A DNA stretch of 64,000 nt from Actinomyces gaoshouyii (GTDB taxonomy: Bacteria; Actinomycetota; Actinomycetes; Actinomycetales; Actinomycetaceae), in the NCBI RefSeq assembly GCF_002072175.1, contig NZ_MVIV01000001.1, forward strand, positions 266,862 to 330,861, read 5' to 3'. The position numbers and the translations under genes were made by a program. The first letter of the stretch is position 1, and every line of letters begins with the position of its first letter. Below, piece after piece: positions 10,715 to 35,441 of this stretch. Below the pieces are notes generated by a model, which worked only from the letters and a program-made list of their open reading frames with translations, was not told the origin of the DNA and ran no database searches.

Positions 10715-11467
10715 ATGCCCGACTCGCCAGCGGCACCAGCCGCTCCTGATCCCACGGCTGAGCTCCTGCCCCGTCCCACTTGGTCGGATCTGTCTGCCCG
10801 AGCCGACCTCACCGTGGCGCGCCGCCGGGTCCTCGAGCTCGTCGAGGCCTCCACCGCCCCCCTGACCGCCGCCGAACTGGCCGACCGACTCGAGCTCCAC
10901 CACAACACGGTCCGCGAGCACCTCGACGCGCTCGTGGAGGCGGGCTTCGTGACGGCCTCGACGCGTCCCACGGGCAGGAGGGGCCGGCCCGCGCTGCTGT
11001 ACACGGCGGTCTCCCCCGACCCGATGATCGTCATCGACTCCTACCTCACCCTCCTCGATGCCATCGTCGAAACCTTCGGAACCGGTCCGGAGGCCCAGAG
11101 CATCGCCCTGCGCGTCGGGCGCCGCTGGGCCGAGATGAGCCCCGCGCCGGCCGGCAACGAGTCCCTGCCGCCGGGCGCCAGCGTCTCGGACCGGCTCGCC
11201 GCGCTCCTCCCCGACCTCGCCCTCATGGGCTTCGCCCCGCAGATCGAGGGCGAGAAGGTCGTCCTCAAGGCCTGCCCGCTCGTCACCCGGTCCCGCGCGC
11301 CCCACCCGCTGGTCTGCGTGATGCACGAGGGATTCCTCAACGCCGTCGCCCGGCGGCAGGGCCTGCTGCCGGCGCTGCCCGAGGAGGAGCCCGACCACGG
11401 GGACCGCCCCCTGCTCGCCGTCTACCCCCTGCTCGACGACGGCTGCCACGCCCGTTTCGAGGACTGA
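10715..11467 (+). CDS. COG2345/SufR-like winged-helix regulator with Cys cluster
   Basis: Predicted transcriptional regulator of 250 residues. A winged helix-turn-helix (RRRVLELVEA...LTAAELADRLELHHNTVREHL...GFV) covers about residues 30-100. The C-terminal half has Cys187, then after 13 residues Cys201 followed by His204, and Cys244 near the end. This resembles the COG2345/SufR-type proteins in which cysteines bind an iron-sulfur cluster. The gene is convergent with nirK and 86 bases from it, so a role in sensing NO or redox state and controlling the nir genes is plausible. That role is inference. A direct metal sensor remains an alternative. Confidence 0.7.
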   Translation: MPDSPAAPAAPDPTAELLPRPTWSDLSARADLTVARRRVLELVEASTAPLTAAELADRLELHHNTVREHLDALVEAGFVTASTRPTGRRGRPALLYTAVSPDPMIVIDSYLTLLDAIVETFGTGPEAQSIALRVGRRWAEMSPAPAGNESLPPGASVSDRLAALLPDLALMGFAPQIEGEKVVLKACPLVTRSRAPHPLVCVMHEGFLNAVARRQGLLPALPEEEPDHGDRPLLAVYPLLDDGCHARFED

Positions 11468-11553: not shown

Positions 11554-13029
11554 CTAGTCGCTCGTCTTGAGGATCGCCTTGGCGCCCTTATCCATATCCG
11601 CGAAGGCGTGCGTCACCACCGCGTAGCTACCGGCCGCCGGCACCACGGCCTCCACGAAGCCGCCCTGCGCCGGCTGGAGGCCGAGTGCCTGCGAGCCGCC
11701 CCTCCAGGAGCGGCCGACGCCGTCGGGGCCGCCCAGCTGGTAGGCCCCCTCGAAGAACACCGTGTCGAACTGGAGGCCCACCACGTGGAAGGAGGTGGGC
11801 AGGGAGGGGCCCGCGTCCATCACCCAGAAGCGCACCCGCTCCCCCGCCCGGGCCTGGAGAGGCTGGAGGGCGTACTGGAAGGCGACCCCGTTGAAGCACA
11901 TGAGATCCGGGGTCTTGGCCGACACCTTCGCGGCGTCGGCCTGCCCGCCCTCGGGCCCCAAGTAGATCTCGGATTGGATGAGGACATACTCGCGGTCCAC
12001 GGCATCGAGCCCGTCGGGATCGATGATGACGACGCCGTGCATACCGGAGGCCAGGTGGACGCTCATAGGCGCCGTCGAGCAGTGGTACAGCCAGATGCCG
12101 GCGTGCTCGGCGGTGAAGGAGTAGACGAGCGACTCCCCGGGATTGATGGAGCGCATGACCGCGTCCGGGGAGACGATCCCGGCGTGGAAGTCGATGGAAT
12201 GGCTCATGGAGCCGTTGTTGACCAGCGTGATCTCGAATGCGTCCCCCACCTTGCCGCGCAGAACGGGGCCGGGGGCCGTGCCGTTGAAGGTCCAGCGGGT
12301 CTGGGTGACGCCCGCGCCCACGTAGGCACCGGGCACCTCGGTGACGGTGAAGGTGTGCTGGTGAACGGTCCCTGCGGGCGCGGGAGCGAGGACGGCGTCG
12401 AAGGGGGTGAAGCCGTCGGGCAGGGGCGCCTCGAGGTTCGGGGTGGCGCTCGGGCCATCTGACGCCGAGCCGTGCGCGCCGTGGCCGGTGGCCGCCTGGC
12501 TCGACTGGGCCGTGCCCGTCGCCTGCCCGTCGGCGGTGATGCGCAGGACCATGCCCTGGGCGCGGTGCCCGGCGATGGAGCACCAGCCCTCGACGGGCCC
12601 GGTGATGACACCGGCGTCGACCCGTGCGCTGGCGCCCGCCGCAACGCGCCCGGTGGTGGCGCCGCCGGCCAGGACGAGGTCATGGACCTGGTCGCCGGTG
12701 TTCTCCAGAGTGATGACGAGCCGGTTCCCGCCGGCAACGTCGATCGTGTCGGGCACAAAGCGCATTCCCTCGACGGTGACCGTGACCTCGGTGGTGCGTG
12801 CGGAACCGGTGGCGCCGCCCTGGGAGGCACCGTCCCACGCGTGGATCGCCGTGCCGACGACGGCGGCCGCGCCAGCGGTGGCCACGCCGAGGAGCGCCCC
12901 GCGCCGGTCGAGGGCGCGAGCGGGAAGGGCGCCCGCGGCCTTGGAGGCGCCGGGGACACTCGGCGCACCGGGGGCACTGGTGGCTCCGGGAGCGCTGGGA
13001 GCGCTCGGCTTCTCAGGGACATCGGTCAT
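11554..13029 (-). CDS. nirK: Copper nitrite reductase (NirK/AniA type) with N-terminal cupredoxin domain
   Basis: Predicted to reduce nitrite to NO outside the membrane; 491 residues. An Ala/Pro/Ser-rich head is followed by a Tat-like DRRGALLGVATAG segment (41-53). Next is an extra cupredoxin domain with type 1 copper ligands His116, Cys150, His155 and Met160. The two-domain NirK core follows, with type 1 ligands His277, Cys317, His325 and Met330, type 2 ligands His282, His316 and His415, and catalytic Asp280. The position where the second catalytic His is expected is Gln389 (QYALQPL), which is odd for an active nitrite reductase. The ATG at 13029 has CGGAGAG upstream. The gene overlaps the preceding membrane-protein gene by 17 bases. 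A related multicopper oxidase activity cannot be excluded. Confidence 0.82.
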   Translation of the reverse strand: MTDVPEKPSAPSAPGATSAPGAPSVPGASKAAGALPARALDRRGALLGVATAGAAAVVGTAIHAWDGASQGGATGSARTTEVTVTVEGMRFVPDTIDVAGGNRLVITLENTGDQVHDLVLAGGATTGRVAAGASARVDAGVITGPVEGWCSIAGHRAQGMVLRITADGQATGTAQSSQAATGHGAHGSASDGPSATPNLEAPLPDGFTPFDAVLAPAPAGTVHQHTFTVTEVPGAYVGAGVTQTRWTFNGTAPGPVLRGKVGDAFEITLVNNGSMSHSIDFHAGIVSPDAVMRSINPGESLVYSFTAEHAGIWLYHCSTAPMSVHLASGMHGVVIIDPDGLDAVDREYVLIQSEIYLGPEGGQADAAKVSAKTPDLMCFNGVAFQYALQPLQARAGERVRFWVMDAGPSLPTSFHVVGLQFDTVFFEGAYQLGGPDGVGRSWRGGSQALGLQPAQGGFVEAVVPAAGSYAVVTHAFADMDKGAKAILKTSD

Positions 13030-14488
13030 GGTGCTCTCCGGTGGTGGGGGCGCCCGCGGACGCGGGTCGTGAGGGGATGGGATGGGCGCGGCTGGAGCGA
13101 TGGGGGCCGCGGGCCGGATCACTGGTGCCATGGGGCCGCAGCTCGAGCGCGCATCGCGCCATGCCCACCGGCACAGCGGCCGCGAGCGCGCCCGCCAGCA
13201 GGGCCCCGGACAGGCGCATCGGCGTCGTCAGGACGGGGGCGAGGGCGATGAGCAGCCCGGCGTTGGCGGCGGTGACGCGGTAGGAGGCGGCGCGATCGAG
13301 GATGGCGTTGGTGGCGCGCGTGGCGGCGGGACCACCGCCGAGCATGACGGGCGTGAGATAGGACAGGGCCCCGATCAGCACCTGGAGGGCGAAGCCCGCG
13401 GCCAGGGGGAGGCGCAGGGCGTGGATCGCCTGGCGCACGGCGGCGGCCTGGGAGGCTGCACCGGCGCCTTGCGCACCGTCGGCCAGGGCCTCCACGATCC
13501 CACTGCCGAGCAGGACGACGCCGGCGATGAACCAGCAGATAGCGGCCGCAGTGGAGGCAGTGGCGTAGGAGTTCGGGGGCACGCGCCGGGCGGTGCGCAG
13601 CGCGGGGCCGAGGACGCTCGCGGCGCCCAGCAGGTAGATCGCCACCCCGAGCGCCCCGAGCGGCGCCCATGTGCCGCTGCCGGCGACGAGCGCGGTCCCC
13701 ACCACGAGGACCGGCAGTCCCCGGACCGCCCGGCGCGGGGCGTCGGGCTCCATGCGGGTGCGCAGCATCGTGGGCCACAGGACGGTGAGGGTGCCCAGCA
13801 CCGTGATGCCCACGAAGCCCAGGAGCATCGTCGTCGTATGGGCGATGTAGAGGGCGTCGACCAGGCGCGAGCCGACTGCTCCGACCGCACTGCCGCCTCC
13901 GCCGCGCTCCCCCGCCCAGCTGGTGAGCCAGCCGAGGAGGGCGCCCGTGGCCAGGGCGACGAGGGCGACGGCGTAGTGGAGGGCGAGCGCCCCCATCCGA
14001 GGCGCGACGGCGCGGCGGCGCTGGACGATGATCGCCGCCACGCCCAGCAGAGCCTGGGCGATGACCACTGCGGCACCGGCCAGGGCGAGCCGGTCCAGGC
14101 CCGCGGTGATACCGGTGAGCACGGCGATGGCGCCGAGGCCGTGGGCGACGAGCCGGGCGTCGAGGAGCGCGGCGCCGCCCCAGGCGGGCCGGTGGAGGAG
14201 GGTGTCGGCGAAGTGGGCCGACCAGGTGGTGATCGCCGAGCCGATGCCGCCCAGCAGCAGGATGTGCAGGGGCAGCCACGCCCCCCAGGTGGCCAGCGGG
14301 CCGGCGAGGACGCCCACCGTCACCGCGACCGCCGCGGCGAGCCAGGCCAGGACGACGCCATTGCGGCGCGTCTGGGCGGCGCGTCGGCCCGCGCGCCTTC
14401 CCCCGGCTCCGCCCGCACGCCCGGGGCGGGAGGACGGCCTGCCGGGAGCACGGCCGGAGGGGCCGGGCATGGGGATCGACGGCATCAT
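13013..14488 (-). CDS. Polytopic His-rich membrane protein of nir operon
   Basis: Integral membrane protein of 491 residues with about twelve hydrophobic segments after a basic Pro/Gly-rich head. Histidines lie in or next to membrane segments: PLHILLLGG, WSAHFADTLLH, AHGLGA, LHYAVALVALA and YIAHTTTMLLGF. The pattern recalls haem-ligating helices of haem-copper/NnrS-like proteins and the membrane part of actinobacterial proteins annotated as multicopper oxidases. ATGA overlaps the stop of the upstream gene, and the end overlaps nirK by 17 bases, so the three are probably made together. Electron transfer from quinol to NirK, or NO handling, is a hypothesis. No exact family name is claimed. Confidence 0.65.
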   Translation of the reverse strand: MMPSIPMPGPSGRAPGRPSSRPGRAGGAGGRRAGRRAAQTRRNGVVLAWLAAAVAVTVGVLAGPLATWGAWLPLHILLLGGIGSAITTWSAHFADTLLHRPAWGGAALLDARLVAHGLGAIAVLTGITAGLDRLALAGAAVVIAQALLGVAAIIVQRRRAVAPRMGALALHYAVALVALATGALLGWLTSWAGERGGGGSAVGAVGSRLVDALYIAHTTTMLLGFVGITVLGTLTVLWPTMLRTRMEPDAPRRAVRGLPVLVVGTALVAGSGTWAPLGALGVAIYLLGAASVLGPALRTARRVPPNSYATASTAAAICWFIAGVVLLGSGIVEALADGAQGAGAASQAAAVRQAIHALRLPLAAGFALQVLIGALSYLTPVMLGGGPAATRATNAILDRAASYRVTAANAGLLIALAPVLTTPMRLSGALLAGALAAAVPVGMARCALELRPHGTSDPARGPHRSSRAHPIPSRPASAGAPTTGEHHDRCP

Positions 14489-15654
14489 GGGCGGCTCCCG
14501 ATCCTGCCCGAGGAGACCGCCCGGGTGACGGCGATGAGCATGAAGGCGAGGATCCCGATGATCCCCACCACGCCGCCGACCTGCCATGGCCCCAGGGCCC
14601 CGACCGCGAGCGCGCCCACCCGCAGCGCCAGGCCGCCATGGAGGAGGGCGAACGGCAACCACATGAGGGGGTGGTGGAGCAGTTTCCGGTGGACGACGGC
14701 GGGGATGATCGTGGAAGCGTGGGCCAGGATCATGGAGAAGGCGAAGCCCAGGCAGAGGCAGTGGATGATGATCTCGTAGGCGTTGCCCTCCAGGTCCCGG
14801 ATGGTCCAGACCGCTCCGGCGACCGCGACCCAGAGGTAGCCGGCGAGCATGGAGGCGGCGGAGAAGCGGACGGCGCCGGCGGCCCGGCCCCGGGAGCGGA
14901 TCGTACGGCGCGCCACGTCGTGGTAGACCATGGTCACGGCCAGCCCGAGCAGCGCGGGGCCGATGATGATCGCGGCCCAGTCCCCGGCGGGGTGGAGGCA
15001 GGCTCCCAGCAGGGCGGTGGCGGACAGCGCCGCCACGACCGTCTCGACGACGCCGTCGAGGAAGGCGACGCGGGCGAGCTCGAGACGCTCGCCGACGATC
15101 GTGAGCGTGGGGAGGAGGAGCCACAGGGGGACGCAGTCCTCGATGGGGGCGCCTGCGGCCCACAGCAGGATCCCGAGGATGAGGGCGATGGCGCCCAGGG
15201 CCTCGACGTCACCGGCCACTGAGGGGGCGCGGCGGTGGACGGCGATGTAGATGGCGCCCAGGGCGAGTGCCCCGGCAAGCATGATCAGGCGGCCGGCAGT
15301 CTGCGGCGCGCCGGCTGGGCCAAGGAGCGATCCGAGGGCCAGCCCGGCCGGGGCCAGGAAGGCCCAGGATGTCCTGGCGGCAACGGCCCGCTCCAGGGAG
15401 ATGACCGTGCCGAGGAAGCCCACGAGCATGAGAGGGCCGTGGAGGGAGGCGAGGGATCCCGGGGCGAGCCCCGCGTCGGTGACCGGCGCGGGGAGGCTGA
15501 GCCTGAGGAGGGCGGCGTCGAGGCCGGTGAGCAGACAGGCGCCGGCCATGGCCAGGGCGAGGAGGCGGGGAGCGAGCCCGGGGGTCCGGGCACTCTCCGC
15601 CCCGTCCGCCCTCTCGGGGCGGCTCCGCTCGCCCCGGCCCAGGATTTTAATCAC
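14485..15654 (-). CDS. NnrS-like polytopic membrane protein, first gene of nir operon
   Basis: Membrane protein of 389 residues with about eleven or twelve hydrophobic segments. Conserved-looking histidines occur in SLHGPLMLVGFLGT, in IIHCLCLGFAFSMILAHAS and in VVHRKLLHHPLMWLPF. NnrS-type haem-copper membrane proteins, which take part in responses to NO and nitrite, have comparable His-bearing helices, so this is the best guess without a search. The GTG start at 15654 is preceded by TAGGACC. The codons after it form one arm of an AT-rich inverted repeat. The gene is the first of a three-gene minus-strand operon ending in nirK. Confidence 0.6.
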   Translation of the reverse strand: MIKILGRGERSRPERADGAESARTPGLAPRLLALAMAGACLLTGLDAALLRLSLPAPVTDAGLAPGSLASLHGPLMLVGFLGTVISLERAVAARTSWAFLAPAGLALGSLLGPAGAPQTAGRLIMLAGALALGAIYIAVHRRAPSVAGDVEALGAIALILGILLWAAGAPIEDCVPLWLLLPTLTIVGERLELARVAFLDGVVETVVAALSATALLGACLHPAGDWAAIIIGPALLGLAVTMVYHDVARRTIRSRGRAAGAVRFSAASMLAGYLWVAVAGAVWTIRDLEGNAYEIIIHCLCLGFAFSMILAHASTIIPAVVHRKLLHHPLMWLPFALLHGGLALRVGALAVGALGPWQVGGVVGIIGILAFMLIAVTRAVSSGRIGSRP

Positions 15655-15675
15655 AGGTCCTACCGTATTAAAATC
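15643..15675. promoter_or_regulatory. AT-rich inverted repeat between divergent nir operon and DUF2249 gene
   Basis: GATTTTAAT (15643-15651) and ATTAAAATC (15667-15675) are perfect inverted arms with a 15-base spacer, in a chromosome of otherwise very high GC. The left arm lies in codons 2-4 of the leftward gene. The right arm could supply -10-like sequence to both directions: TAAAAT on the plus strand and TTTAAT on the minus strand. A repressor bound here would block both promoters. The cognate regulator is unknown; the COG2345-type protein at 10715 is one candidate. Confidence 0.6.
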
Positions 15676-15804: not shown

Positions 15805-16107
15805 ATGAGCGAGAACCCGAGCCTCCTGCCGATCGAGGAGAAGAAGTCCGGCGGTTGCGAATGCGGTTGCGGATGCGGCGACGAGCGCCTCTCCCTCGAC
15901 GCCCGCGCGATCCCCCATCGCCTGCGCCACGCCGCCGTCCTGGGAGCGGCGTCGAGCCTGGCGGTCGGCGAGTCCTTCGACCTCCTCGCCCCGCACGTGC
16001 CCACCCCGCTGCTGGCCCAGATCGACCAGCTCGACGGCTCCTTCGCCCATGAGCTGCTCGAGGCCGAGGACGGCTACGCGCGCGTCGAGATCCGCCGCAC
16101 CGCCTGA
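15805..16107 (+). CDS. DUF2249 domain protein with N-terminal Cys cluster
   Basis: Small cytosolic protein of 100 residues. After a short head with Cys18, 20, 22 and 24 (GGCECGCGCGDE), the rest matches the DUF2249 pattern: LDARAIPHRLRHAAVLGA, then LLAPHVPTPLLAQIDQ. DUF2249 proteins often sit with nitrite, NO or cytochrome genes, but no reaction is established that I know of. The ATG at 15805 has AAGGAG upstream. An in-frame ATG at 15691 with a perfect AGGAGG would add 38 residues of unlike composition. I prefer the shorter form, with the longer one possible. The Cys cluster suggests metal or Fe-S binding (inference). Confidence 0.72.
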   Translation: MSENPSLLPIEEKKSGGCECGCGCGDERLSLDARAIPHRLRHAAVLGAASSLAVGESFDLLAPHVPTPLLAQIDQLDGSFAHELLEAEDGYARVEIRRTA

Positions 16108-30280: not shown

Positions 30281-31108
30281 ATGCGCCTCCGCGATCTCCT
30301 CCCGAGCCGCGCCGTCCTCATCGCGCTCCTCCTCGCGCCCGCCTGCGCGCCCGCAGCGTGCTCCGGGACCCCATCCTCCACGGCCTCCGCACCCATGGCG
30401 GCGACGGGGGCCCCGGCGGGCGCCACCACTGCGGTGGCCGGTCAGCTCACCGTCTTCGCCGCGGCCTCCCTCAAGGAGGCCTTCGAGGAGATCGGGGCCG
30501 CGCTCACCGAGGACAATCCCGGTCTGACGATCACCTACGACTTCCAGGGCTCCCAGGATCTCGTCTCCGCTCTCGCCAACGGCGCGGCGGCCGACGTCCT
30601 GGCCACCGCTGACGAGAGGTCGATCGCCTCGGCAACCGAGCAGTCCCTCGTAACGCGCCCATCCGAGTTCGCCACCAACCGGCTCACCCTCATCGTCCCG
30701 CCGGGCAACCCCGGGGGCATCACCGGCCTGGACTCCTCACTGGCCGGCAAGGACCTCGTCATCTGCGCCGACGCCGTCCCCTGCGGCAATGCCACGGACA
30801 GGCTCGAGGAGGCCCTGGGCGTCGCCCTTTCCCCCTCCTCCGAGGAGCAGAAGGTGACCGACGTGCGCGCCAAGGTGGAGTCGGGCGAGGCCGACGCCGG
30901 CATCGTCTACAGAACCGACGCTGCGGCCTCCGCAGACGCGTCGGATGAGGTCACGATCCCCGACGGCGGCGTCGTCAACCACTACCCGTTGGCGGTGACC
31001 TCATCAGCCGCCAACCCTGCCGCCGCCCAGGCATTCGTCGACTTCGCGCGCGGCAGCGAGGGCCAGGCGATCCTCGCGGCGCACGGCTTCGGCGCCCCCG
31101 ACCAGTGA
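30281..31108 (+). CDS. modA: Molybdate-binding lipoprotein ModA
   Basis: Extracellular substrate-binding protein of the molybdate ABC importer; 275 residues. A signal peptide ends in a lipobox-like LAPAC or APAAC, followed by a Ser/Thr/Ala linker. The mature part has the ModA pattern: LTVFAAASLKEAFEEIG, YDFQGSQDLVSALANGAAADV, VCGN-like CADAVPCGNATD and AGIVYRTDA. The gene lies 16 bases after narI and overlaps the next start as GTGA. Supplying molybdate to the neighbouring nitrate reductase is the obvious job. Confidence 0.92.
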   Translation: MRLRDLLPSRAVLIALLLAPACAPAACSGTPSSTASAPMAATGAPAGATTAVAGQLTVFAAASLKEAFEEIGAALTEDNPGLTITYDFQGSQDLVSALANGAAADVLATADERSIASATEQSLVTRPSEFATNRLTLIVPPGNPGGITGLDSSLAGKDLVICADAVPCGNATDRLEEALGVALSPSSEEQKVTDVRAKVESGEADAGIVYRTDAAASADASDEVTIPDGGVVNHYPLAVTSSAANPAAAQAFVDFARGSEGQAILAAHGFGAPDQ

Positions 31109-33132
31109 CGCTCGCCCGGACGGCACTGTGGCCGCTGCCGCGCCGCTCCCGGGCCGCCCGGGCCCCGCTGCCCCTGACGGTGGCGCTCCTCGGGCTGGCC
31201 GGGGCGGCGCTCATCATCCTGCCGTTGGCGGGCATGGGGACGCGGGTCGCCTGGGGCCGTTTGCCGGAGCTGCTGTCCTCCCCCTCCGCCACGGCGGCGC
31301 TGGGGCTGTCGCTGCGCACCTGCCTCGCCTCCACCACCATCTGCGTGCTGCTCGGGGCGCCGCTGGCGCTGCTGCTGTCCCGGCAGTGGCGCGGAGTGCG
31401 CCTGGCGCGGGTTCTCGCCGTCCTGCCGATGACGATGCCGCCGGTCGTGGCGGGGATCGCGCTGCTGGCGACCCTCGGCAAGAAGGGCGTGCTGGGAGGG
31501 GTCCTGGATGCCTGGGGGATGCGCATCGCCTTCTCGACGACGGCGGTGGTCATCGCGCAGGTCTTCGTCGCCATGCCCTTCCTGGTGGTGACGCTCGAGG
31601 CGGCGCTGCGCTCGCGCGATGAGCGGGCGGAGATGATCGCCCGCACGCTCGGCGCCGGGCCGTGGAGGCTGCTGGTCCGCATCACCCTGCCGATGGTCGG
31701 GCCTGCACTGGCGCGGGGGACGGCGCTGGCACTGGGACGCGGCCTCGGCGAGTTCGGGGCCACCATCGCCTTCGCGGGCTCGAAGGAGGGGGTCACGCGC
31801 ACGATGCCCCTGGCGATCTACCTCCAGCGGGAGGAGGACACGGCCACCGCGCTGGCACTCGCCGTCGTCCTCATCGCCGCCGCCGCCCTGGTCGTGGGGG
31901 CGACGACGGTGCCGTGGGGGACGCTGCTCCAGCGGTGGCTCCTCCCCGCGGGCCGGTCCCCCGCACCTTCGGGCACCGAGCATCCGTCGGCGCTCCCACC
32001 AGTCCCGATGCCCGCGTCACAGGACGAGCCCGCCCTTCCCCACACTCAGCGGAACGCACGCCGCCTGCCGCTCACAATCTCCTTCACTTCCGCCGAGCGC
32101 GACGTGTCGGTCTGCCTGGAGATCGGGGCCGGGCGCAGGCTGGCCCTCATCGGCCCCAATGGATCCGGGAAGTCCACGGCCTGCCTCGTGGCAGCGGGGC
32201 TCCTCGACGCCACCGGCGGCGAGGTCCGGCTCGGGGAACGCGTGCTCGACGGAACCGGCTTCGTGCCCGCGGGCCAGCGCGGTATCGCCCTGCTCTCCCA
32301 GGAGCCGGGGATCTTCGCGCATATGTCCGTGCTGGAGAACGTCGCCTTCGGACCGCGCTGCCAGGGCCTGGGGCGCCGAGCCGCACGGGAGCGGGCCCGG
32401 GCCGAGCTGGTGGCCGTCGGCGCCGAGCACCTCGCCGGACGATCCGGAGGCGCGCTCTCCGGCGGGCAGGCCGCGCGAGTGGCCCTGGCGCGGGCGCTGG
32501 CGACCTCCCCTCGCGCGCTCATCCTCGATGAGCCCATGGCGGCCCTCGATGCGGGGGCCCGTCAGGAGATGCGGTCTCTCGTGACCCGGCGGGCGAGCGA
32601 GGAGGGCCTGACGGTCCTGCTCGTCACCCATGACGTGCTCGACATCGCCTCCTTGGCCGACGACGTCGTCGTCCTGGAGGCGGGGCGAGTGGTCGAGCGC
32701 GGGGAGGCGGCGCGAGTGCTATCGGCTCCGGGCAGTGACTTCACCGCGCGCCTGACCGGCATGTCCATCCTCATGGGCACCGCAGCGGGCAGTCGGGAGG
32801 ACCCCCGCGTCGATCTGGGGGCCGGAATGGTCATCCATGGGCGCCCGGACCAGGAGGTCAGGGAGGGCGAGCCCGCGGCCGCGCTCATCCCCCCGGAGGC
32901 CGTGGCCCTCTATGAGGAGGCCCCCTCGGGCTCGCCGCGCAACGCGCTGCCCGCCGTCGTGCGCACGGTCGAGCGCTCGGGAGCCCTGGTGTCGGTGGGC
33001 CTGGAGAGCGGAGGGCACCGCCTGGCCGCCTCGGTAACGGCAGCCGCCGTCGCCCAACTCGGCATCGCCCCCGACCGCGAGCTCATCGCCATCATCAAGG
33101 CCGTCGAGGTCCGGGTCGTCCCGCGCGGCTGA
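31105..33132 (+). CDS. Molybdate ABC transporter permease-ATPase fusion (ModBC)
   Basis: Single 675-residue protein combining a ModB permease and a ModC ATPase. Residues about 20-275 have five or six membrane segments and the permease loop motif GRGLGEFGATIAFAG. A Pro-rich linker follows. The ATPase (about 325-550) has Walker A GPNGSGKST, Q-loop LLSQEPG, signature LSGGQAARVALARALA, Walker B ALILDEP and the switch His in LLVTHD. A TOBE-like molybdate-binding domain ends the protein. The start GTG overlaps the modA stop. ModB and ModC are separate proteins in most bacteria, so the fusion is worth noting. Confidence 0.92.
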   Translation: MTLARTALWPLPRRSRAARAPLPLTVALLGLAGAALIILPLAGMGTRVAWGRLPELLSSPSATAALGLSLRTCLASTTICVLLGAPLALLLSRQWRGVRLARVLAVLPMTMPPVVAGIALLATLGKKGVLGGVLDAWGMRIAFSTTAVVIAQVFVAMPFLVVTLEAALRSRDERAEMIARTLGAGPWRLLVRITLPMVGPALARGTALALGRGLGEFGATIAFAGSKEGVTRTMPLAIYLQREEDTATALALAVVLIAAAALVVGATTVPWGTLLQRWLLPAGRSPAPSGTEHPSALPPVPMPASQDEPALPHTQRNARRLPLTISFTSAERDVSVCLEIGAGRRLALIGPNGSGKSTACLVAAGLLDATGGEVRLGERVLDGTGFVPAGQRGIALLSQEPGIFAHMSVLENVAFGPRCQGLGRRAARERARAELVAVGAEHLAGRSGGALSGGQAARVALARALATSPRALILDEPMAALDAGARQEMRSLVTRRASEEGLTVLLVTHDVLDIASLADDVVVLEAGRVVERGEAARVLSAPGSDFTARLTGMSILMGTAAGSREDPRVDLGAGMVIHGRPDQEVREGEPAAALIPPEAVALYEEAPSGSPRNALPAVVRTVERSGALVSVGLESGGHRLAASVTAAAVAQLGIAPDRELIAIIKAVEVRVVPRG

Positions 33133-33297: not shown

Positions 33298-34395
33298 TCA
33301 CGGCTCCTCCTTGCGCAGACCCACGAACCACAGCAGATACAGGCCCCCGCAAGCGGCACTGACCAGGCCCACCGGGATCTGGAACGGCGCGAGGAGGCGG
33401 GCGGCGAGGACATCAGCCAGCGCGAGCAGCAGCGCGCCCATCGCGGCTGAGGCCGCCAGGGCGGTGCCGGCCGAGTGCGAGGCGCGGCGCGCCAGTTGGG
33501 GAGCCGCGAGCGCCAGGAAGGCGATGGGCCCGCTCACCGCCACGCAAACGGCCGCCAGGACCACTCCGTAGCCCAGGAGGATGCCCCGGGCCCGCGCAGC
33601 ACTCAGCCCCAGGGCGGTGGCGGCGTCGTCGCCGAGCTCGAGGATCCCGGCGGGTCGGCCGAGCCACGCGATGAGCGGCAGGAGAAGAGCGGCCGCGGCC
33701 AGGAGCGGGCTCACCTGCGCCCAGGTGATCGCGTTGAGGGAGCCGAATTGCCAGGCCTTGGCGGCCTCGGCGCTCTCGATCGTGGCGCGGGTGAGCAGGT
33801 AGTCGTTGCTCGCGGCGAGCATCTGGGACAGGGCGATTCCGACCAGGATGAGGGCATCGCCGCTCGCGCCGCGCCGCAGGGCCGCGAGCACGACGAGCAC
33901 GGCCGTGACGAGGCCTCCCAGAATCGTTCCCAGGGCGATCATCGGCAGGGATGACGCCGTGGACAGGAGGATCACCACCAGTCCCCCGGTGGTGGCGCCC
34001 TTGGTGAAGCCGACGATGTCGGGGCTGCCCAGGGGGTTGCGGGACAGCGATTGGAAGACGGCGCCGGCCACCGCGAGCAGTGCCCCGATGAGCAGGGCGG
34101 CGAGGGCCCGCGGAAGGCGCTGGTCGAGCACGATGAACCTGTCCAGATCACTGCCGGAGCCGGCGAGGACCGCCAGCGCGTCGGCGGCGGAGAGCCGGTA
34201 GGCACCGGTGAGAAGGGCACCGGTGCTCACGATCAGCGCTGCCAGGAGGAGGATGAGGGTGATTGCCAGGGCGCGCCGGTGGAGCAGGATCGAGCGCCCC
34301 CGTCCCAGGGGGACGGCGAACTGCGCCCTCGGGGTTCCCAGGCATGCGGAGGGGCGAGCCGCGCCGGCCGCCTCAGCTCCGTCCCGCCGACTCAC
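33298..34395 (-). CDS. FecCD-type iron-siderophore ABC permease, second copy
   Basis: Inner-membrane permease of 365 residues with about ten segments. The FecCD pattern is clear: RLPRALAALLIGALLAVAGAVFQSLSRNPLGSPDIVGFTKGA is matched piecewise, and GPIAFLALAAPQLAR is the ATPase-coupling region. It would form the channel with the permease encoded just upstream, whose stop it overlaps as GTGA. A basic cytoplasmic head of about 35 residues precedes the first segment. The end faces modBC with a 165-base gap that has no gene; GGATCG/CGATCC there may form a weak hairpin. Confidence 0.92.
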   Translation of the reverse strand: MSRRDGAEAAGAARPSACLGTPRAQFAVPLGRGRSILLHRRALAITLILLLAALIVSTGALLTGAYRLSAADALAVLAGSGSDLDRFIVLDQRLPRALAALLIGALLAVAGAVFQSLSRNPLGSPDIVGFTKGATTGGLVVILLSTASSLPMIALGTILGGLVTAVLVVLAALRRGASGDALILVGIALSQMLAASNDYLLTRATIESAEAAKAWQFGSLNAITWAQVSPLLAAAALLLPLIAWLGRPAGILELGDDAATALGLSAARARGILLGYGVVLAAVCVAVSGPIAFLALAAPQLARRASHSAGTALAASAAMGALLLALADVLAARLLAPFQIPVGLVSAACGGLYLLWFVGLRKEEP

Positions 34396-35441
34396 GCGCG
34401 CCGCCTCGGGCGGGCGAGCACGAGGCCGATGAGGACGGGACCCCCGAGGAAGGCGGTCACCACGCCCGCCTCCAGCTCATCGGGCCAGATGAGGCGCCGC
34501 CCGACGACGTCGGCGAGCAGCAGCAGCGCGGGCCCGGCGATGAGGGAGGCCGCGAGGATGCGCCGCTGATCTGCGCCCAGGAGGAGGCGCAGCGCATGGG
34601 GGACCATGAGGCCGACGAAGGAGATCGGGCCGATGGCCGCCGTGGTCGCCCCGCACAGGAGTGTGATGGTGACGAGCGCCAGGGCCCGCACCGCGCCGAC
34701 GCGCGCCCCGAGCGCGCTGGCCTGCTCCTGCCCCAGGGCGAGCGCGTTGAGGGCGTGGCCCAAGGCCATCGCCAGGAGCAGGCCGACCAGGAGGAAGGGC
34801 GCGACCCAGGCCAGGACCTCCGCGCCGCGCCCCTCCAGGGACCCCACCACCCAGAAGCGGTAGGAGTCGAAGGCCTGCGTGTCGCGCATGGTGATGGTCC
34901 CCGTGATCGCGCCCAGGGAGGCTCCCAGGGCGACCCCGGCGAGGACGAGGCGCGTCGGCCCGGCGCGGCCGGAGCGGCCCGCCATGAGGTGGACGAGCCC
35001 GGCGGCGGCCGCGGCCCCGGCGAAGGCGAACCAGAGGTATTCCGTCACGCCGGTGAGCCCCAGCAGGCAGATCGACAGGACGACGGCGAGCGCCGCTCCC
35101 GCGTTGACGCCCAGGATGCCGGGCTCGGCGAGGGGGTTGCGGGTGAGGGCCTGCATGACGACGCCGGCCGCGGCGAGTCCGGCGCCGGCCCCGATGGCCA
35201 GGAGGGTGCGCGGCATGCGCAGCTGCCAGACGATGATGGAGGGGACGCTGCGATCACGGGCGAGCAGGCCATGCACCGTCTCACCCGCTCCGAGCGGTCG
35301 CGAGCCGATGGCCAGGCTCAGCACCACGAGGAGGGCGAGGATCACGGCCCCCACCGCGGCCAGGAGCAGGAGGCGCGCCGCGGGGGCATTGCCGGGCCCG
35401 GGGGCGCGCCCGTTCCTCGCGCTCGTATGGGCAAATCGCAT
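34392..35441 (-). CDS. FecCD-type iron-siderophore ABC permease, first copy
   Basis: Permease of 349 residues with about ten membrane segments. Typical stretches are RMPRTLLAIGAGAGLAAAG, the ALTRNPLAEPGILGVNAGA segment, and GPISFVGLMVPHALRLLLG near the end, which contacts the ATPase. It is the first gene of the leftward half of a divergent transporter locus. The ATG at 35441 lies 23 bases from the divergent binding-protein gene, with an IdeR-like box between. Iron repression is therefore likely. Confidence 0.92.
   Translation of the reverse strand: MRFAHTSARNGRAPGPGNAPAARLLLLAAVGAVILALLVVLSLAIGSRPLGAGETVHGLLARDRSVPSIIVWQLRMPRTLLAIGAGAGLAAAGVVMQALTRNPLAEPGILGVNAGAALAVVLSICLLGLTGVTEYLWFAFAGAAAAAGLVHLMAGRSGRAGPTRLVLAGVALGASLGAITGTITMRDTQAFDSYRFWVVGSLEGRGAEVLAWVAPFLLVGLLLAMALGHALNALALGQEQASALGARVGAVRALALVTITLLCGATTAAIGPISFVGLMVPHALRLLLGADQRRILAASLIAGPALLLLADVVGRRLIWPDELEAGVVTAFLGGPVLIGLVLARPRRRA

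Follow-up and report, generated by a model that had tools for sequence, protein, structure and literature searches.

For the question of where NirK of Gram-positive bacteria takes its electrons from, one locus of Actinomyces gaoshouyii offers candidates both for the proteins and for their haem ligands, together with fusions that occur in nature, so that a direct test becomes possible. The locus lies within a 64,000-nt stretch of DNA (the window, to which all coordinates refer unless a locus number precedes them). A reading made from the letters alone (the sequence-only reading) had proposed that three overlapping genes, encoding two polytopic membrane proteins (here A and B) and a NirK with an extra cupredoxin domain, form a membrane-coupled nitrite-reducing system. 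The coordinates of the open reading frames confirmed both overlaps, and the three genes, their parts, and their neighbours are arranged as follows.

15805-16107 (+): DUF2249 gene, divergent from A and kept beside the module in many actinobacteria
15654-14485 (−): gene A, 389 aa, GTG start with AGGA just upstream; 12-helix membrane protein with a predicted haem-copper-oxidase/NnrS-like fold
14485..14488 (−): overlap of the A stop and the B start, ATGA, 4 bases
14488-13013 (−): gene B, 491 aa, ATG start; predicted 12-helix membrane protein
13013..13029 (−): overlap of the B 3′ end and the NirK 5′ end, 17 bases
13029-11554 (−): nirK, 491 aa, ATG start with GGAGAG upstream; anchor, extra cupredoxin, and two-domain core
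12841..12906 (−): twin-arginine/hydrophobic anchor of the split NirK, RRGALLGVATAGAAAVVGTAI, ~residues 42–63; its counterpart in the fused protein is a 13th helix
12529..12792 (−): N-terminal cupredoxin, ~residues 80–167, with a complete type-1 copper site
11557..12432 (−): NirK catalytic core, ~residues 200–491, bearing the ligands of type-1 and type-2 copper
10715-11467 (+): winged-helix regulator with C-terminal cysteines, downstream of NirK and a conserved neighbour of the module

A longer NirK frame starting at 13131 was rejected as a mechanical extension only. An inverted repeat, GATTTTAAT...ATTAAAATC (15643-15675), overlaps the start region of A and was absent from the relatives checked. 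Divergent from A lie the DUF2249 gene and moaA, and beyond them genes for molybdopterin and nitrate functions, narK, narG, narJ, and narI among them. The locus is thus a nitrate-to-nitrite-to-NO island. In many of the other actinobacterial loci compared, the DUF2249 gene and a similar winged-helix regulator recur next to the module; the regulator possibly functions in Fe-S or NO sensing. Elsewhere in the window, modB (molybdate permease) and modC (ATPase) are fused as one ORF (31105-33132, +) that adjoins modA and the nar operon, and two adjacent genes for FecCD-type metal-chelate permeases (33298-35441, −) lie near the nitrate region.

Judged by its ligands and structure, the nirK product is a divergent NirK with predicted nitrite-to-NO activity. 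It falls outside the TIGR02376 equivalog, scoring 139.8 bits against the NCBIfam cut-off of 296.3 bits. Its closest PDB relatives are NirKs (E ~2e-43), and its soluble part is best matched in structure by the three-domain NirK of Hyphomicrobium (2dv6, 6tfo). The ligands of the core and the active-site Asp and His are all present and conserved (H277, D280, H282, H316, C317, H325, M330, H415, and H474), with copper-ligand roles assigned as established for NirK. A Pfam search confirmed the extra cupredoxin (PF13473, E 1.4e-8), which precedes the two-domain core and carries every one of its copper ligands (H116/C150/H155/M160).

The association of A, B, and NirK is not a matter of chance, because the genes fuse and because their order persists both within Actinomyces and outside it. 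Actinomyces species keep the order A-B-NirK, although some of them lack A; window B is ~90% identical to B of A. denticolens and ~81% identical to that of A. timonensis. In A. vulturis and outside the genus, a single frame encodes B and cupredoxin-NirK, usually with A directly upstream. A and B form a single frame in A. urogenitalis and its relatives (L059, L062), and Georgenia sp. SYP-B2076 has A::B::cupredoxin::NirK as one continuous frame (L078:3642-7583). In a further frame of 859 aa, from a class-wide sample (L132:3458-6037), A is joined straight to cupredoxin-NirK and no B was found; in the related L133, A and NirK are separate, and the region examined likewise yielded no B. Another A::NirK frame (L156:3344-6126) has a reading-frame break inside A, reflecting either a sequencing error or decay. 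A and B look partly interchangeable. In the NirK tree, the split form falls within one Actinomyces clade and the fused A. vulturis protein outside it (the long branches L099 and L156 are unreliable), a grouping that makes a single gene split in Actinomyces likely.

Co-occurrence of the three genes, which the sequence-only reading had named as a check, held for NirK and its membrane partners but not for A as an obligatory member. Among 98 genomes drawn evenly and without selection across the class, 14 encode a strong NirK and 10 encode A, which in one of them is just a fragment where the contig ends. Every genome with A also has a strong NirK (10 of the 14; Fisher p 7e-11), and every one of the 14 carries A and/or B. 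Among 59 relatives, B occurs in 35, A in 25, and both in 24 (p 4.5e-7). A is absent from 11 of the 35 relatives having B (~one third) and is therefore accessory and cannot be essential. In 80 loci brought in by B (a sample chosen for B), NirK is missing only where the contig stops.

A and B matched no family in Pfam or NCBIfam, PF00115 was not hit in profile searches with either protein, and searches of PDB sequences with A and B, singly and as profiles, gave no useful match. AlphaFold2, run on the natural A::B fusion of L062 with an 82-row alignment, produced a model with 12 helices per protein (pLDDT 90.0, pTM 0.62). When this model was compared with the PDB by Foldseek, the top 20 matches were all haem-copper oxidases or NO reductases (probability 0.99–1.00), the best being the NO reductase cNOR (4xyd), with cbb3 oxidases among the others. 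The best E was 0.0078 and none fell below 0.001, target TM-scores were mostly 0.40–0.60, and the matches were not resolved to the A or the B half. On the strength of the model, A and B look as if they fold like respiratory haem-copper oxidases. Profile comparisons gave weaker signals: hhalign aligned B with oxidases at p 0.0083, which is suggestive only, given p values of 0.46 and 0.67 for controls against FecCD transporters. Comparison with oxidases and NnrS reached a best p of 0.0014, also weak, for proteobacterial homologues of A. A and B aligned weakly with each other (p 0.026), helices 10–12 of A matching B from helix 2 onward.

Loop charges (positive in the inner loops but not in the outer ones) place the N-termini of both A and B inside. 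In a model of the B::NirK fusion (L071, pLDDT 83.7), a further helix stands ahead of the cupredoxin, with pLDDT <50 at that helix. Given the N-in topology of B and this low-confidence helix, the cupredoxin and NirK are predicted to lie outside the membrane. With this topology, the fusions of NirK to B, to A, and to both, and the strict co-occurrence, the proposed coupling of NirK to the membrane proteins is well supported.

Several of the membrane histidines, which had drawn attention in the sequence-only reading, proved to be conserved across 62 homologues. A H72, H298, H312, and H339 and B H75 and H217 are invariant or nearly so, and B H92 is kept in 56 of the 62. They sit on helices 2, 10 (two, 14 residues apart), and 11 of A and on helices 2 (two) and 6 of B. 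Both proteins have a fully conserved histidine in the outer part of helix 2 and a second one on the outer side, on helix 10 of A (61/62) and on helix 6 of B (62/62). These four positions are candidate haem ligands.

15439..15441 (−): A His72 codon, helix 2, outer side; candidate haem ligand
14761..14763 (−): A His298 codon, helix 10, outer side; candidate haem ligand
14264..14266 (−): B His75 codon, helix 2, outer side; candidate haem ligand
13838..13840 (−): B His217 codon, helix 6, outer side; candidate haem ligand

The low-spin haem of oxidases takes its ligands from helix 2 and helix 10. The full set of six invariant oxidase histidines (helices 2, 6, 7, and 10) is absent in A and B, and neither the second-metal histidines of oxidases (helix 6/7) nor the paired helix-10 histidines of NO reductases are conserved in either protein. 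Because the fold resembles that of haem-copper oxidases and NO reductases and each protein has two outer-side histidines, it is plausible that A and B bind haem, predicted to be haem b. The locus also suggests the reuse of an oxidase fold that no longer has its catalytic centre.

The genome of A. gaoshouyii (completeness 99.99%) yielded no match to cytochrome c (PF00034) or bc1 cytochrome b (PF13631), for both of which the Corynebacterium glutamicum control was positive. The usual donors of NirK are therefore missing, which favours a built-in quinol route. The same genome gave no match to the oxidase/NOR family (PF00115), a weak result since the family was also missed in C. glutamicum, which has an aa3 oxidase. 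Quinol-fed NarGHJI is encoded in the window. In Bacillus azotoformans, NirK with menaquinol as the donor has been reported, with the route left unclear (PMC3475470).

The explanation that we find best is that the three genes encode a nitrite-to-NO reductase that is anchored in the membrane and has an electron inlet of its own. A and B would have a haem-copper-oxidase/NnrS-like fold that has lost its oxygen- or NO-reducing centre, and their histidine pairs near the outer face (helices 2 and 10 of A, helices 2 and 6 of B) would hold haem b. Menaquinol would be oxidized in this membrane module, and electrons would travel by way of haem to the extra cupredoxin, entering at its type-1 copper, and on to the NirK core outside the membrane, which would reduce nitrite to NO. 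B would be the usual core partner, with A as an additional subunit that can be dispensed with and that takes the place of B in a few lineages. We give roughly an even chance to the proposal that an A/B haem-b module passes electrons from menaquinol to an outside NirK, in which we infer the haem, the quinol oxidation, the direction of flow, and the contact between A and B. Slightly short of that stands the stronger suggestion that A and B represent a novel type of cytochrome b, based on a haem-copper-oxidase fold that has degenerated, which forms with fused or coupled cupredoxin-NirK a menaquinol:nitrite oxidoreductase ("qNir," cf. qNOR). If it is true, "qNir" would enable bacteria that have no cytochrome c to use nitrite as a respiratory acceptor, with NO as the product. 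A published point speaks against the cupredoxin relay: according to PMC4770552, the extra cupredoxin of the Hyphomicrobium enzyme is too distant from the core to transfer electrons effectively. The oral genera listed as nitrate reducers include Actinomyces (PMC12998184), so an A/B-NirK enzyme could add to the NO that is formed in the mouth.

The main alternative is that A, and perhaps B, handle NO in the manner of NnrS, binding or disposing of the NO made by NirK or shielding metal centres, with no electron feed. NnrS is a polytopic haem-copper membrane protein of NO regulons. Homologues of A are encoded on proteobacterial plasmids of Jiella, Paraburkholderia, Variovorax, and Cupriavidus (profile match E 1e-70). 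They keep the helix-2 and helix-10 histidines and lie beside genes for DUF2249, an Fe-S assembly factor, NnrS, hemerythrin, Rrf2 regulators, and Hmp or NO reductase; no NirK was found near them in the stretches examined. Several such relatives are annotated as "hypothetical protein" (L149:6899-8056, L150:6869-7978, L152:7314-8606, and L153:6500-7654, with FeS_assembly_P nearby). The proteobacterial relatives of A are apparently an unnamed family of NO-response membrane proteins. DUF2249, which we take to be COG4309, is conserved at the Actinomyces locus as well. NO regulons include NnrS and COG4309 (Rodionov et al., PMC1274295). The best homologue of A also matches the NnrS family (PF05940) weakly over nearly its full length, at 13.4 bits (E 0.051). 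NO might, moreover, accumulate in A. gaoshouyii, in whose genome the oxidase/NOR family was not found (with the weak control noted above); a search of that genome for the NnrS family gave no match, and no control matched either.

Several observations run counter to NnrS-like handling. That homologue stays below the PF05940 gathering score of 28 bits, window A does not match the family, and the NnrS signature residues are not shared. The NnrS motifs WHxHEMxFGF (helix 2) and GHTGR are absent in A, whose helix 2 reads HGPLMxxGFxGT. Wherever the contig is long enough to tell, B occurs with NirK and in most cases fused to it, an arrangement for which a general NO scavenger would have no need, and a plasmid search with B gave no matches. 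Taken as a whole, we regard this alternative as the main rival but as less likely than the electron-feeding reading. The two readings can nevertheless both be partly true: because proteobacterial A stands in NO-response clusters, A may act in NO handling and B as the partner of NirK. NO sensing or handling had been left as a second option in the sequence-only reading; these clusters lend the handling part support.

It is improbable that A and B serve only in assembly or anchoring, by loading copper or haem or by tethering NirK to the membrane. NirK does need copper, and membrane partners would hold it at the membrane, but two 12-helix proteins with buried conserved histidines exceed what an anchor needs, and the split NirK already bears an anchor of its own. 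That the pair is an NO reductase converting the NO of NirK to N2O, making the whole a nitrite-to-N2O enzyme, is very improbable: cNOR and cbb3 oxidases are among its top structural matches, but the helix-6/7 and paired helix-10 histidines are not conserved.

The preferred reading, an electron-feeding membrane module for NirK, has partial precedents. The earlier statement that no complex of this composition had been described needs correction: Decleyre et al. 2016 (PMC4770552) describe in Propionibacterium acnes a NirK of ~900 aa that combines a cupredoxin with a transmembrane domain of ~400 aa, whose function they give as unknown. The membrane domain, the cupredoxin, and the NirK core come in the same order as here, and the domain is very probably the fused form of B. 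In the window, by contrast, this architecture, joined in relatives as B::NirK, is divided between separate overlapping genes, and a second membrane protein, A, stands ahead; the accessible text mentions no partner gene. The paper also states that the transmembrane domain is not found in all actinobacterial NirKs and is lacking in ~500-aa forms; in Actinomyces, the reason is that B has a gene of its own next to nirK. A membrane domain fused to actinobacterial NirK is thus already published in PMC4770552. The split form, the second protein A, the fold, the fusion series, and the proteobacterial context are new; for gene A, the fold, and the fusion series, no earlier description was found in the open-access literature. 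The three-domain NirK of Hyphomicrobium (2dv6, 6tfo) shares the N-terminal cupredoxin and the two-domain copper core but is without a 12-helix membrane module. NnrS (PF05940) resembles A in being polytopic, in sharing gene neighbourhoods with homologues of A, and in its weak near-full-length similarity; it differs in the motifs WHxHEM and GHTGR, missing in A, and was never fused to NirK in the loci examined. Haem-copper oxidases and NO reductases (CcoN, NorB, and qNOR) have the 12 helices and the inside N-terminus that are predicted for A and B, supply the top fold matches, and share with A the histidines of helices 2 and 10 near the outer face. They differ in having the active-site histidines and the PF00115 match that A and B lack, and in the system described here catalysis would instead be placed in NirK.
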